Positions 4,004-8,781 of a stretch of DNA of 64,000 nt are shown here, piece after piece (positions within the stretch are counted from its first letter, which is position 1; each line of letters begins with the position of its first letter). The position numbers were made by a program, and so were the translations under genes. The stretch spans positions 1-64,000 of the forward strand of contig JAFQKQ010000084.1 of assembly GCA_017396845.1 (NCBI GenBank). The letters run 5' to 3'. Source of the DNA: Clostridia bacterium (lineage in GTDB: Bacteria; Bacillota; Clostridia; Christensenellales; Aristaeellaceae). The notes below the pieces were generated by a model. It was not told where the DNA came from. It made no database searches and was given only the letters and a program-made list of their open reading frames with translations.

Positions 4004-5341
4004 ATGAAAAAGTGGTTGGCGGCAATGACTGCGCTGATTTGTTTGTTGGCAAGCGCGCAGGCAGAGGAATTCCATCTGATCTTTCACGGGGATTGGGATC
4101 GCATTCAAACGCTTACGTACCAGTCTTCGATGGCGGATTTGTTTGAAACCACCTATCCGAGGCTGTATGCCCGCTGGGGCACGGAACAATCGCCTGCAAC
4201 CGTATTGTTTAAGGCGGATGCAGAGGATCATACAAGCGTTGCGTATGCGTATTCCAATTGTGTGGTTGTCAGCGTGGATTATGTCAACCGCAAGCCGCGG
4301 GATCGGGGCTATTTTTCGCATGAGCTGACCCATATGGTTCAGTCATACGGCGACAAAATTGAATACAATGAAAATTCCTGGTGGGTAGAGAACATGGCTG
4401 ATTACGGAAGATTCCGCTATTATCAGTGGATATCGCTGGATCAGATGGAGCCTTCCTCCCGATATGCGGAGGACTGGATGGACTGGGGATATCAGTCCTA
4501 CGGAAACAGCCAATGGTTTTTTGCCTATATGGATTATCGGTATCCCACGATCCCCGGTGAATCGGGCGCACGTGAATACGGGCTGATCGATTCCATTCAT
4601 CTGCTGATCCATGCAAACGAGGGAGAGCCGCTGAGCGACAATCCTTATGATCCTTCTACGCCCATTAACCAAACCGTATATGCCATTACGGGGTACGAAA
4701 CCATAGAGGCGCTTAGGCTCCGGTTTGTCGATGAGCTTGAAAAAGGCACATGGTGCTTCACTGGCTTTGCCGGATATCCGGACAATTTCATTACGGAAAA
4801 TCTGCCCGGGATTGAAAACCCGGAATACCCGCAATGGGAAGATGCGGTTCACGCGACGGATTCCGCTCAGCCGCTTGAAGCGGTTACGGATGGCTATAAT
4901 CTGTGCGCGGACGCATCCGTTTTTGCGGCTTCCGGCTACGTCAATGAGCATGAAGCGCCTGAGATGCTGATTGACGGAGATCTTAGGACCAAGTGGTGCT
5001 CCACGCGATACGATGTGACGAATTCAAAGTACGGTATGGATGAAACGCTTCAGTGGATCGTGATTGACCTGGGAAGCGAAAAACAGTTTAATACCTATAC
5101 GATGATCAACACAAAAACCGTGGAACCCTATTACGGTAATGTGGTCTGCTGGGAATTGTTGGTTTCCAATGATGGTGAGAACTGGGTGAGCGTGGATTAT
5201 CAGCCTTATTGCGATGAGGATATGGTTTCTTTTGACATTGGTCCGCAAAGCGCAAGATATCTGCTGCTGCGCAGCTATGATCCGGATAACGGTGAGGTGG
5301 GTACCATTCGCCTGTACGAGTTCATGCTGTTTGATCGCTGA
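4004..5341 (+). CDS. Secreted basic-secretory-protein-like metallopeptidase with discoidin domain
   Basis: This 445-residue exported protein has a signal peptide (residues 1-20, cleavage after AQA). An N-terminal metallopeptidase-like domain follows, with the zinc motif H106-E107-L-T-H110 (SHELTHMVQSYGD), resembling the plant and bacterial basic secretory protein family. The C-terminal part (about 300-445) looks like an F5/8 type C (discoidin) carbohydrate-binding domain: DGDLRTKWCS, then WIVIDLGS, and a final RLYEFMLF. ATG 4004 follows AAAGGAG. It stands alone between terminators. Likely role: secreted protease that binds glycans or mucin; the substrate is inferred. Confidence 0.75.
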   Translation: MKKWLAAMTALICLLASAQAEEFHLIFHGDWDRIQTLTYQSSMADLFETTYPRLYARWGTEQSPATVLFKADAEDHTSVAYAYSNCVVVSVDYVNRKPRDRGYFSHELTHMVQSYGDKIEYNENSWWVENMADYGRFRYYQWISLDQMEPSSRYAEDWMDWGYQSYGNSQWFFAYMDYRYPTIPGESGAREYGLIDSIHLLIHANEGEPLSDNPYDPSTPINQTVYAITGYETIEALRLRFVDELEKGTWCFTGFAGYPDNFITENLPGIENPEYPQWEDAVHATDSAQPLEAVTDGYNLCADASVFAASGYVNEHEAPEMLIDGDLRTKWCSTRYDVTNSKYGMDETLQWIVIDLGSEKQFNTYTMINTKTVEPYYGNVVCWELLVSNDGENWVSVDYQPYCDEDMVSFDIGPQSARYLLLRSYDPDNGEVGTIRLYEFMLFDR

Positions 5342-5392: not shown

Positions 5393-5420
5393 TTGAATGT
5401 TTGAAAATTTATGATATAAT
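5393..5420 (+). promoter_or_regulatory. Promoter of the metal-type ABC locus
   Basis: TTGAAT (5393-5398) and TATAAT (5415-5420) are 16 bases apart and lie about 40 bases upstream of the ATG at 5463. No Zur/Fur-type palindrome could be recognised by eye. Confidence 0.55.
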
Positions 5421-5462: not shown

Positions 5463-5750
5463 ATGAAAAATCGCAAGATCGCATGGCTGCTGTTGCTGCT
5501 GCTGTGTGCGACGGCGCTTCTTTCCGGTACCCTTCTGATTCTCCATGCAGACCACGTTTGTCATCAGACAGCATGCCCGATCTGTACGGTGCTGACGCAG
5601 AGCTTTGAATCGTTCCTGTGCCTGACCGCTGTGACGGTGACGACAGGTCTGTACAGAGACGTAAGCCGCAGCTTTGGCTTCGGCTCACCGGAAAGTAGGT
5701 TTATTCCGGATTGGACACCTGTCCGTCGGAAAGTCAAACTGCTGAATTGA
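5463..5750 (+). CDS. Small membrane protein with HxxH-CPIC cysteine motif
   Basis: This 95-residue protein begins with a hydrophobic helix (residues 7-26) followed by HADHVCHQTACPIC, a cluster of histidines and three cysteines that could bind a metal or form disulfides outside the cell. A second, weaker hydrophobic stretch (about 47-65) follows and the tail is basic. ATG 5463 follows GAGGGG. It is first in the locus leading to the ABC genes at 5890-8781, about 140 bases upstream of the ATPase. Similar HxC-CPxC small proteins sit beside metal transporters in Clostridia; that link is from memory and the role here is inferred. Confidence 0.55.
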   Translation: MKNRKIAWLLLLLLCATALLSGTLLILHADHVCHQTACPICTVLTQSFESFLCLTAVTVTTGLYRDVSRSFGFGSPESRFIPDWTPVRRKVKLLN

Positions 5751-5753
5751 TTT

Positions 5754-5881
5754 CTTCTGTTTTGCACGAATCATATCAAAACAGAAGGAGAATTGAATAT
5801 GAACGTCTATTTATCAAGAATGCAGGGCTTATGCTTCGCCCCTTCTGTTTTGAAGCCACATTTCGATCAAGACAGAAGGAG
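5754..5881 (+). promoter_or_regulatory. Two tandem hairpins sequestering Shine-Dalgarno sites
   Basis: Hairpin 1 pairs CTTCTGTTTTG (5754-5764) with CAAAACAGAAG (5777-5787), a perfect 11-bp stem. Hairpin 2, 88-91 bases further on, pairs the same left arm (5842-5852) with CAAGACAGAAG (5868-5878). In both, the right arm runs into AGAAGGAG. The second is the ribosome site of the ATPase gene (ATG 5890). The first serves a 54-codon frame (ATG 5799, stop 5963) that overlaps the ATPase start. The layout suggests translational control or an imperfect tandem duplication of a leader. Confidence 0.6.
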
Positions 5882-5889
5882 AACCAAAC

Positions 5890-6546
5890 ATGATCCGCAT
5901 AGAAAACCTGCGCAAGCATTTTTCCGACGAATCGGATATTATATACCGAGATCTGAGCTTTGAGGATGGCAAGTCCTATGTGCTGCTGGGCGCATCCGGC
6001 TGCGGCAAATCCACGCTGCTGCACATGATTTCCGGTGTGCTCTCGCCCACCGGCGGACGCATCCTCATCAATAACAAGGACATGGCGGCTGCATCCCAAC
6101 GGGAGAAGGACGCTTTCCGCATCGCAAAAATCGGCTGCGTCTTTCAGGATTTCAAGCTGATCGATGAAATGACCGTTCAGGACAACATCGAGGTGCTGAA
6201 GCTGGAAAAGGTGGATGTGTCCCGCATGGATGCGCTGCTTCTTCAGCTTGGCATTCTGAAGCTGAAGAAGCGTCAGGCGTCCCGCCTGTCCGGCGGCGAA
6301 AAGCAGCGCGTCGCCATCGCCCGCGCGCTGGTCAAGCAGCCGGAGATCATCCTTGCAGACGAACCAACCGGCAACTTAAACTACGCCATCGGCCGTAAAA
6401 TCACCGAAGCCCTGCTGAACGCAGGTAAGGGCAAAACGCTCATCTGCGTAACCCATGATGATCGCCTCTGCGAGCTGTTTGACGAAGTTATCGATATGAA
6501 CGAAGTCACCGCTTCCGCTGTGAAGGGAGGTGAACAGCATGCTTAA
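5890..6546 (+). CDS. ABC transporter ATPase, LolD/MacB type
   Basis: This 218-residue cytoplasmic ATPase has Walker [10 protein letters not shown] (from residue 34), a Q-loop region VFQDFKLI, signature [12 protein letters not shown] and Walker [12 protein letters not shown]. It belongs to the LolD/MacB/FtsE-like group that works with single-permease FtsX-type partners. It overlaps the permease gene by 8 bases. Its ribosome site lies inside the second leader hairpin (5842-5878). With the permease and lipoprotein it forms one transport or mechanotransmission complex; the neighbours suggest a metal-related role. Confidence 0.85.
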
Positions 6547-7867
6547 GTTTGCACTGAAAAACATGCTGGTTCGCCGCGCCCGCGTGGTGCTGGTCACGCT
6601 TTCCATCGTGCTTTCCGCCAGTGTCGCGCTGCTGGCCTTCAACATTTCCCAACAGGTGAGAGAGGGCGTCATCTCTACCGCCGGATACTATGACATGATT
6701 ATCGGCCCGGCAGGCAGCTCTACCCAGCTTGCCATGAACACCATGTTCTTCACCGATGAACCCCTCGGTACCATTTCCTACAAATACGTTAAGGAGCTGC
6801 AATCCGGCGGGCGGACCAATGCCGTCGTGCCCTTTACCATGGGCGACAGCTACAACGGCGCCAAGATCGTCGGCACCAGTGCCGATTACCTTGAAGGCAA
6901 GAGGCTGAAATCCGGCGACATGTTTGACAAACCCTTTGAAGCGGTCATCGGCAGCGCCGTAGCCAAGCGCTATGACCTCGCCCTCGGCGACAGCATGATC
7001 ACTTCTCACGGCCTGACCGGCACCGGACATGCCCATGAGGGGAATCCGCTGACCGTGGTCGGCATCCTGGCAAAGACCGGAACGGCTTACGATAACGTTA
7101 TCTTCACCGCCTGCGAAACTGTCTGGGCGGTTCACGATCACGGACATACCGATGAAGCACATATCCGCGAGGATGAAGAAACTGCTCATGAGGACGACAG
7201 CCATGCGCATGGGGAAGAGGAGCACTCTCATGAGGAAGCCGATGAACCCATGAGCCATGCCGATGCGCACAGCAATGTGACGGGCACGGATAAAGAGGAA
7301 ACGCATGACGAAGCCGCAGAAGAGCACGACCACAGTCGCGGCGATGTGTGCGCGATCCTCGTCAAGAGCAAGAGCTTCAACGACTATTACAAACTGATGG
7401 AGGTGTACGGCGCGAATGCATCGCTGCTGTGCATTAATCCCTCCACAGTTCTGCGCGAAGTGCTGGAACAGGTCGATCTTTCCACGAAGATTGTATACAT
7501 CCTGTGCGCCATCATTTTGCTGATGAACATCGTTGTCATCTCCGTCATTACATTGCTTAACATGTACGACGCGCAGAAGGAAATCGCCCTGATGCGTCTG
7601 ATCGGCATCAGCATGCGCCGGATCGGCCTGCTGTACCTGATCCAGAACGGCGTCATCGGCCTGATCTCCACCGTACTGGCGCTTTTGCTGTCCCACGCCT
7701 GTCTGGGTCTGATGGGCAGCTTCGTTTCGTCGATGGGCATTGTGCTGAATATCACTGCTGTGTATCCAATGGAATGGGCCATCATGGCGCTGGTATTCGT
7801 GCTGAGCGTACTGCCCACCATGGCAAGAATCCTCTCCATGTCCCGCAAGGACAGCCTGCATACGTGA
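6539..7867 (+). CDS. FtsX-type ABC permease with histidine-rich extracellular insert
   Basis: This 442-residue permease has one N-terminal membrane helix (about 16-36), a large extracellular domain, and three C-terminal helices (about 315-435), the MacB/LolC/FtsX layout. Inside the extracellular domain, residues 199-265 hold 14 histidines among Asp and Glu (VHDHGHTDEAH, SHAHGEEEHSH, EEHDHS), and GHAH occurs earlier; this is a likely zinc or nickel chelating loop. ATG 6539, 8 bases after AGGGAGG, was preferred to GTG 6530, which overlaps that site. It is followed closely by the DUF3299-like lipoprotein. Confidence 0.8.
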   Translation: MLKFALKNMLVRRARVVLVTLSIVLSASVALLAFNISQQVREGVISTAGYYDMIIGPAGSSTQLAMNTMFFTDEPLGTISYKYVKELQSGGRTNAVVPFTMGDSYNGAKIVGTSADYLEGKRLKSGDMFDKPFEAVIGSAVAKRYDLALGDSMITSHGLTGTGHAHEGNPLTVVGILAKTGTAYDNVIFTACETVWAVHDHGHTDEAHIREDEETAHEDDSHAHGEEEHSHEEADEPMSHADAHSNVTGTDKEETHDEAAEEHDHSRGDVCAILVKSKSFNDYYKLMEVYGANASLLCINPSTVLREVLEQVDLSTKIVYILCAIILLMNIVVISVITLLNMYDAQKEIALMRLIGISMRRIGLLYLIQNGVIGLISTVLALLLSHACLGLMGSFVSSMGIVLNITAVYPMEWAIMALVFVLSVLPTMARILSMSRKDSLHT

Positions 7868-7878
7868 GGTGATTGACA

Positions 7879-8781
7879 ATGAAAAAGGTCGTATCAATCC
7901 TTCTGCTGCCGGCGCTGATTCTGTGCCTGACGTCATGCGGCAAAGAAGAAAACACCGGCGCGGTTACTTCTCTGAACTTCAGCGATGCGGTGAGCTTTGA
8001 ACGAATCCAAACGCTGAACGGACAAAGGGTGACGATCATCGGCTACATGGCGACCATTTCGCCCATCAGCGGCAAATTCATGTATCTGATGAACATGCCC
8101 TATCAGTCCTGCCCCTTCTGCCTGCCCAACACCACTCAGCTCTCCAATACTATGGCCGTGTATGCCCCCGATGGCAAGGCCTTTCAGTACACCGATCAGG
8201 CCATTCAGATCACCGGCACAATGGTGGTCGAGGACATGGTGGACGAGTTTGGATACACCTACAATTACCGCATCGCGGACGCATCCTATGAAGTGGTGGA
8301 TTTGTCCGCAATCTCCGAGGAATATGCGCTGTGGCAAGCCATCGCCACGGACGGCATCGTCAATGAGCTGAGCGCCATGTTCGATTATCTGCACTTCCTG
8401 TGCCAGTGGACAGAATACACAAGCAGTTATGTTGACGAAAACGGTGCGACTGTGACGTTTAACCTCTACGCAGGAGACGTTCTGCACTATTTGGAGGATG
8501 ACGGCCCCTACGGCTATGCGGACAAATACGCCGCCGGATACTTTCCCGGGCTGATCTCCCGCATCCGTGCCATCAGCCCGGATGGATTGGAGGATTTGGT
8601 CGCCATTGTGGAAGCCGCGCAGAAGCAGGCGGATATCGCCCTTGCCGACTTGAACAGCGGTGCATATACCTACGATGAAGCAACAGATAAATTTACTCTG
8701 AACAATAACGATACCCTGTATAATCAGTTCTACGAGGTGTACTACCGGTTCTCCGACTGGCTTGCACGCTGGGAGCTGTAA
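7879..8781 (+). CDS. Lipoprotein with DUF3299-like OB-fold and CPFC motif
   Basis: This 300-residue lipoprotein has lipobox LTSC near residue 20. Residues about 45-140 contain LNGQRVTIIGYMA, then SCPFCLP and VYAPDG, then IQITGTMVVED. That resembles DUF3299/OB-fold domains (L-x-GK-x-V-x-I-x-GYM). The rest is helical and not recognised. ATG 7879 lies 11 bases after the permease stop, with GAGGTG upstream; the TTG at 7873 is too close to that site. It probably faces outward beside the histidine-rich permease. The motif CPFC could bind metal or be redox active. Function inferred. Confidence 0.65.
   Translation: MKKVVSILLLPALILCLTSCGKEENTGAVTSLNFSDAVSFERIQTLNGQRVTIIGYMATISPISGKFMYLMNMPYQSCPFCLPNTTQLSNTMAVYAPDGKAFQYTDQAIQITGTMVVEDMVDEFGYTYNYRIADASYEVVDLSAISEEYALWQAIATDGIVNELSAMFDYLHFLCQWTEYTSSYVDENGATVTFNLYAGDVLHYLEDDGPYGYADKYAAGYFPGLISRIRAISPDGLEDLVAIVEAAQKQADIALADLNSGAYTYDEATDKFTLNNNDTLYNQFYEVYYRFSDWLARWEL

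Follow-up and report, generated by a model that had tools for sequence, protein, structure and literature searches.

A clostridial FtsX/MacB-type ABC operon with a His-rich permease: a ZrgA-less relative of Zrg with a probable role in zinc handling

Is the four-gene operon at positions 5463–8781 of the window a zinc-handling machine and, if so, at which face of the membrane would it work? The window is the whole stretch of DNA analyzed, i.e., the first 64,000 nucleotides of contig JAFQKQ010000084.1 from a Clostridia bacterium of the Aristaeellaceae (GCA_017396845.1). The operon encodes a small membrane protein, an ABC ATPase, an FtsX/MacB-type permease and a CPxC lipoprotein (P0001–P0004). With a probability of roughly 60%, we read it as a zinc-handling type VII (FtsX/MacB-fold) ABC machine belonging to a ZrgA-less clade beside the Zrg systems (ZrgABCDE of Vibrio, PA4063–PA4066 of Pseudomonas aeruginosa), in which zinc would be moved at the outer membrane face; it is not a proven importer. 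This reading was built from sequence: gene content, homology, conserved ligand-type residues and the neighborhood to zinc genes. From these we infer the metal, the direction of transfer and every mechanistic step.

Operon layout and conservation

All four genes lie close together on the + strand and point in one direction. P0001 (5463–5750, +; 95 aa), found as an open reading frame (ORF) and by profile search, has a hydrophobic N-terminus followed by HADHVCHQTACPIC, with the motifs HADHVC and CPIC. After a gap of 139 bases comes P0002 (5890–6546, +), an ABC ATPase of the FtsE/LolD/MacB type (PF00005, 125.7 bits) whose NCBIfam relatives shown are all below cut-off. The permease P0003 (6539–7867, +), assigned by family matches, alignment and tree, exceeds the Pfam cut-offs for both PF02687 (FtsX) and PF12704 (MacB_PCD). 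Most aligned relatives use the ATG at 6539, which makes the gene overlap the end of the ATPase gene by a few bases; the GTG at 6530 is also possible, and permease residues are numbered from it here. P0004 (7879–8781, +) carries the lipobox LTSC and consists of a DUF3299-like N-terminal domain with the CPFC motif (approximately residues 30–140) and a C-terminal part. No family above cut-off was found for P0001 or P0004 in Pfam and NCBIfam.

A permease search of the species-genome collection returned 57 loci, 56 of them titled Clostridia, Firmicutes or lower taxa and one from the gammaproteobacterium Natronospira. In the clostridial loci with room for the neighboring gene, the ATPase adjoins the permease in 51/51 and the lipoprotein in 48/50, the remaining two (L036 and L050) showing the lipoprotein with over-long ORF starts; the small protein is present in 38/46. 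The four-gene set is a conserved operon and more than a chance grouping, and the operon proposed in an earlier note on this DNA is thus found again, with its members co-occurring across the 56 loci. The lipoprotein was found in 26/150 genomes of the same family and in 13/398 genomes of the phylum, the own genome included in both counts. None of the neighbors recurring in at least five clostridial loci was recognizable by eye as a regulator or a further partner.

The same ground plan is known from Zrg, which also combines an ATPase, an FtsX/MacB permease with conserved histidines and a DUF3299 protein in one operon; in L087 and L126, two retrieved Zrg-type loci, the gene for a small H/C protein precedes these. 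P0001 is a possible counterpart of the small membrane protein ZrgD: it is similar in build, and its hidden Markov model (HMM) reaches one Zrg-type locus (L126, E 8e-4). The literature on Zrg is cited here from parts of the papers. PA4063–PA4066 are described as zinc-repressed (PMC11481552, mBio 2024), the five zrgABCDE genes as induced 76- to 206-fold (PMC9817125), and a survey of Zur regulons includes zrgABC of V. cholerae (PMC6103462). The likeness to PA4063–PA4066 claimed earlier is right in substance; the window's permease falls in a clade next to that of the Zrg permeases, and zinc or Zur control of PA4063–PA4066 and of the Vibrio zrgABCDE genes is reported (PMC11481552; PMC9817125). Differences from Zrg are the lack of a ZrgA match in the own genome, with a His-rich loop in the permease instead, a CPxC motif in place of C-x-H-x-PPP, a longer lipoprotein and the lack of a detected Zur-like box.

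Permease and lipoprotein

In an alignment of 91 permeases only three columns reach His in at least 70% of the rows. Two of these, H160 and H169 (7007–7036, +), lie in the ectodomain and are found in 90 and 86 of the 91 rows, while H202 is found in 90. The row without H202 (L162) was placed with LolC/LolE by FastTree and was rejected as a family member, leaving a family of 90. Of the three histidines, E. coli MacB and LolC have none and LolE has one. The window's permease shares PF02687 and PF12704 with the type VII systems MacB, LolCDE, LolF and FtsX, and a separate ATPase with LolD; the permease profile also matches Protein Data Bank (PDB) sequences including LolF, LolC, LolE and FtsX. In the tree the family does not group with the Lol permeases, as E. 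coli LolC and LolE branch outside it (support 0.79 for the 90). Ten further permeases from operons linked to alkaline phosphatase (see below) all have H160 and H202; seven have His in the H169 column and the other three have one further along the same loop.

The tree divides the 90 permeases into the window's clade (68 members) and a Zrg-type DUF3299/ZrgA clade (22 members), both with support 1.0, and the node that unites the two to the exclusion of MacB, LolC and LolE is supported at 0.79. The window's clade comprises 53 clostridial permeases (the window included), three from one other Bacillota family, five of the alkaline phosphatase branch, four from Gammaproteobacteria and three others.

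H202 and the His/acid-rich insert that follows it (7133–7351, +) contain 14 His, H202 counted, in the 73 residues up to the next conserved block; the earlier figure of a 67-residue insert with 14 histidines was about right. From H202 on, the 53 clostridial permeases have 2–14 His (median 8) and the 15 non-clostridial members of the clade 1–59, and at least four are present in 57/68 members of the clade. The 18 permeases with a ZrgA gene in the fetched stretch have only 1–2, H202 counted. ZrgA itself (PF10986, DUF2796 in papers) has no match in the own genome, which is 73.5% complete, and its HMM gave no hit in any clostridial locus. The earlier suggestion that the His-rich part lies inside the permease where ZrgA is missing is supported, in the form of a contrast between the two clades. 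In the short-insert members L163, L166, L167 and L168, additional His are found between H160 and H169, and L086, L148 and L172 have neither these nor a His-rich insert. One same-clade permease (L170, 6437–8011) contains a repetitive HDDH/HAHDD stretch and accounts for the 59 His.

The N-terminal part of P0004 is a predicted distant relative of DUF3299. As the direct search for PF11736 was empty, we used bridging sequences and profile–profile comparison. The profile of the clostridial lipoproteins matched that of 28 canonical DUF3299-type proteins, picked by motif, with 95.9% probability, and with 83.7% after removal of the first 30 residues, whereas column-shuffled controls (20 per version) reached at most 5.5% at full length and 0.26% when trimmed. 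For 18 CPxC relatives from other groups the values were 97.6% and, trimmed, 97.2%, the shuffled controls having been made for the clostridial profile. Proteins from Gammaproteobacteria bridge P0004 to DUF3299: the Natronospira protein (CPYC) scores 20.6 bits on PF11736, just below the cut-off of 22, and the CPxC proteins of three genomes (G321, G188 and G175) exceed it with 29.8, 27.0 and 25.1 bits, the one from G321 (L145) scoring 28.1 bits in a second search. By eye, the canonical ACIHxPPPPxNQ aligns with SCPFCxPN and the first Cys is common to both. The earlier note had thus rightly named a DUF3299-like lipoprotein, with a similarity that is seen at the profile–profile level. It had also named absent DUF3299 similarity and absent co-occurrence of the genes among its three grounds for dropping the idea, and both similarity and co-occurrence were found.

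Among solved chains, PDB 4hsp, named PA4066 and called OB-like in the part of PMC8561739 used here, comes nearest to the Phaeobacter DUF3299 protein; the clostridial lipoprotein profile fails to reach this structure at the sequence level. The short relatives lack the C-terminal part of P0004, which is probably shared by the longer proteins of three other Bacillota genomes (L163, L167 and L168). PF11736 had no match in the own genome nor in any of 14 control genomes. We also observed that znu operons (L212, L214, L222, L227 and others) can end with the gene for an OB-like lipoprotein in which a CC motif is conserved; two of these proteins were tested and had no Pfam match. The resemblance to P0004 by eye prompted hhalign comparisons, which yielded 1.2% with the clostridial family, 74% with the bridging set and 19.5% with DUF3299.

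Zinc genes and control sequences

Three kinds of neighborhood, with znu genes, with FUR/COG0523 genes and with alkaline phosphatase, underlie the assignment to zinc. The first concerns P0001. Its profile detected 84 places in 72/150 genomes of the family, 19 of which share a contig with the lipoprotein gene; of the other 65, 57 were examined and the 8 weakest left out. In 48/57 there is a znuA or znuC match downstream in the same orientation; three of the 48 (L248, L264 and L265) show ZnuA only, at a distance of about 2 kb. The raw count was 51. Three places (L228, L229 and L261) were moved out, being judged FtsX-type operons truncated at contig ends: the ZnuC query scores only 57–64 bits there, the permease is also visible in L229, and the genomes of L228 and L261 carry the lipoprotein on another contig. 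Neither neighbor is seen in 6/57 places: L230 and L250 are near contig ends, L244 and L260 have an OB-like lipoprotein behind, and L254 and L255 have nothing recognized downstream. In 17/57 there is a Fur-family match no more than 1.5 kb upstream, and two Fur examples and one ZnuA example were confirmed by Pfam. Thus the ZnuABC/AdcABC operons of the same bacterial family share with the window a P0001-family gene in front, whereas no ZnuA- or ZnuB-type protein is found by Pfam among the four products of the window's operon. ZnuA genes of the own genome lie on other contigs, one with ATPase and permease genes beside it.

The second kind is seen among the gammaproteobacterial relatives. The Natronospira locus (L085) has a divergent FUR gene near the operon. 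In L146 a FUR gene is accompanied by a CobW/COG0523 gene; two such genes are present in L145, together with a DksA-like gene, and one in L147. FUR, COG0523 and DksA-like genes are typical of zinc shortage.

The third kind is alkaline phosphatase, a secreted zinc enzyme. On plasmid MP1 of Deinococcus radiodurans the genes for alkaline phosphatase, a CPxC protein, the ATPase and the permease stand in a row; the phosphatase gene is DR_RS15680 and the other three are DR_RS15690–DR_RS15700. This CPxC protein matched 55 plasmid records, of which ten were read, picked to cover genera (Deinococcus, Thermus, Allomeiothermus, Roseomonas, Rhizobium, Paracoccus twice, Shinella, Azospirillum and Ensifer). 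Alkaline phosphatase is directly upstream of the CPxC gene in 10/10, and these records (L279–L288) and L086 have the fixed order alkaline phosphatase, CPxC DUF3299-like protein, ATPase, FtsX permease. The CPxC gene of these phoA-linked operons in Deinococcota and Alphaproteobacteria is annotated as hypothetical. PF00245 is also found upstream in L148, L171 and L172, whereas two class-wide searches for further phoA-linked copies returned the starting genomes only (1/29 and 1/82). Like the window, these operons encode a CPxC protein, ATPase and permease, and five of their permeases belong to the window's clade; they differ in the alkaline phosphatase gene in front, in the order CPxC–ATPase–permease and, in several, in a short insert. 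No P0001-family hit was found in L086, L148, L164, L171 and L172, and the clostridial operons have no fixed partner comparable to alkaline phosphatase.

Control by zinc starvation, implied by the earlier note, found no support as far as the Zur-like box that precedes many znu operons is concerned. A Bacillus-type Zur-box consensus gave nothing above shuffles in 31 upstream regions. The search for shared palindromes upstream of znu-type operons yielded TGARAANNNTTYTCA, and a scan with at most one mismatch covered 43 of 48 znu-type operons and 31 of the 34 FtsX-type operons in alignment A4. The palindrome precedes 18/43 znu-type operons (shuffles at most 1), a count that is not independent since the palindrome was derived from the same set, in contrast to 0/31 FtsX-type operons, the window's included, which leaves zinc-starvation control of the latter without sequence support. 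In the own genome TGARAANNNTTYTCA occurs exactly at five places, one of them about 100 bases before the genome's own Fur-family gene; no recognized zinc gene was seen by eye near the other four. With at most one mismatch it is absent from the two own ZnuA loci and from the window. The palindrome TGAGAATTATTCTCA was seen at G000:C18:44611–44625 (L276), about 100 bases before the single Fur-family gene detected in the genome.

Other features of the locus can be described briefly. A consensus scan found a promoter-like TTGAAT-16-TATAAT before the operon (5393–5420, +), one of 4 such matches in the region against 2.6 expected. Tandem inverted repeats were detected by repeat and fold analysis at 5754–5883 (+), in the intergenic stretch between P0001 and the ATPase gene (5751–5889; fold z −4.5). 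They are kept in L029 and L031 and partly in L030, and have no Rfam match. In these repeats, CTTCTGTTTTG/CAAAACAGAAG-GAG, every 3′ arm extends into a Shine-Dalgarno-like sequence, one before a short ORF (~5800) and one before the ATPase gene, and alternative pairings are possible. The Shine-Dalgarno-like sequences can be covered by the repeats, which may bear on operon control. The gene just upstream of the operon (4004–5341) encodes a secreted-looking protein with a HELTH motif resembling that of zinc metallopeptidases, for which Pfam yields F5/8 type C domains only. No such gene is among the ORFs listed upstream of the L029 operon.

Possible function of the machine

In the mechanism we favor, the permease ectodomain would capture Zn(II) via the conserved histidines, and the His/acid-rich loop would supply the metal-collecting capacity that is located in ZrgA for Zrg. 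ATP binding and hydrolysis by P0002 would be passed on to the ectodomain by mechanotransmission and drive zinc transfer among P0003, the lipoprotein P0004 with its CPxC motif and P0001, the small membrane protein with H/C motifs. The zinc might thereby be made available at the outer membrane face, either for the Znu importer or for secreted zinc enzymes. The MacB/FtsX fold together with the alkaline phosphatase and znu partners suggests transfer at the outer face rather than import.

Several observations weigh against this mechanism or parts of it. The contrast between ZrgA and insert is confounded with clade, and since it splits along two clades it reflects few independent events. Of the 15 non-clostridial members of the window's clade, 7 have only 1–2 His from H202 on, and four Zrg-type permeases in which no ZrgA was seen (some of the stretches being cut short) also lack the insert (1–3 His). 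According to the part of PMC9820375 cited here, the His-rich loop of V. cholerae ZrgA is non-essential for function, so a His-rich loop alone may not replace ZrgA. P0004 gives no DUF3299 match in a direct search of Pfam and NCBIfam, and the Zur-like palindrome is missing from the FtsX-type operons. The link to alkaline phosphatase belongs to another branch of the clade than the window's, and that branch's fifth member, L164, a GC-rich stretch with many false ORFs, showed no phosphatase gene. Finally, for the P. aeruginosa mutants behind the proposed pyochelin/cobalt export, the portion of PMC11481552 used here reports zinc contents without relevant difference.

A true zinc importer, in which the His-rich permease would act as both solute-binding protein and channel and carry Zn(II) into the cytoplasm, as proposed for V. 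cholerae ZrgABC, seems unlikely to us. The relation to the Zrg clade in the tree and the P0001 family shared with znu operons would fit it, as would the poor growth without zinc of zrgA mutants in two Vibrio species; in the parts cited, both Vibrio papers treat Zrg as a zinc acquisition system (PMC9820375; PMC9817125). However, a MacB-like fold was held to argue against import for PA4064–PA4065 (PMC11481552, in part). Besides the missing Zur-like box, the own genome already has a ZnuA gene with adjoining ATPase and permease genes. FtsX/MacB-fold permeases have four transmembrane helices and no known ion path.

Even less probable is MacB-type export of a metallophore, a small molecule or peptide loaded with metal, with the His-rich loop and the CPxC protein handling the metal at the exit. 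PA4063–PA4066 were proposed to be a MacB-type exporter of pyochelin/cobalt, PA4065 mutants accumulating both in a znuAzrmB background (PMC11481552, in part), and P0003 does match PF12704. Yet the ATPase is a separate gene here, unlike in the tripartite MacB exporters, where it is fused to the permease and works with MacA and TolC, and no MacA-like adaptor or metallophore synthesis gene was seen beside the operon by eye, with only 4004–5341 searched against families; the recurrent clostridial neighbor is mainly a purine gene cluster (up to 8 loci by eye, in a list that consists mostly of false ORFs on the other strand). We give equally little credence to another metal (Cu, Ni or Co), or zinc excess rather than shortage, being handled. 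In its favor are the ability of His/acid loops and CxxC motifs to bind various metals, the E1-E2 ATPase adjoining the operon in L171, a copper chaperone gene in the vicinity in L287 and the lack of a Zur-like box, whereas the neighbors that can be read by family point to zinc.

Zinc handling at the outer face by a ZrgA-less clade therefore remains the reading we prefer. What appears to be new is this clade, with its own distribution beside Zrg; the earlier description as a hitherto undescribed machine holds for the window's clade, as far as the searches reach, and fails for the Zrg kind as a whole, which was already known. Among the open-licence papers listed by the searches (20 of 82 in one of them), titles and abstracts contained no Gram-positive counterpart of Zrg.

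Published readings of the role of MacB-fold ABC systems in zinc supply differ even for P. aeruginosa and Vibrio, as far as the cited parts go, between export (PMC11481552) and import (PMC9820375). A wider and more tentative idea, which we think less likely than not, is that the window's operon belongs to a widespread clade of extracytoplasmic zinc-loading machines. In these, an ABC motor acting only at the outer face would hand zinc over from the permease's His-rich ectodomain to an OB-fold carrier with CPxC, from which secreted zinc enzymes, alkaline phosphatase among them, would receive it; the Zrg "importers" would then form one branch of such machines and not be importers. The ZrgA-less clade spans Clostridia, Deinococcota and Proteobacteria, and the fixed alkaline phosphatase partner in one branch offers a simple readout, phosphatase activity, in a laboratory organism that is harmless. 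Metallation of secreted enzymes is mostly thought to be passive; if the idea is true, an energized step would be added to it.

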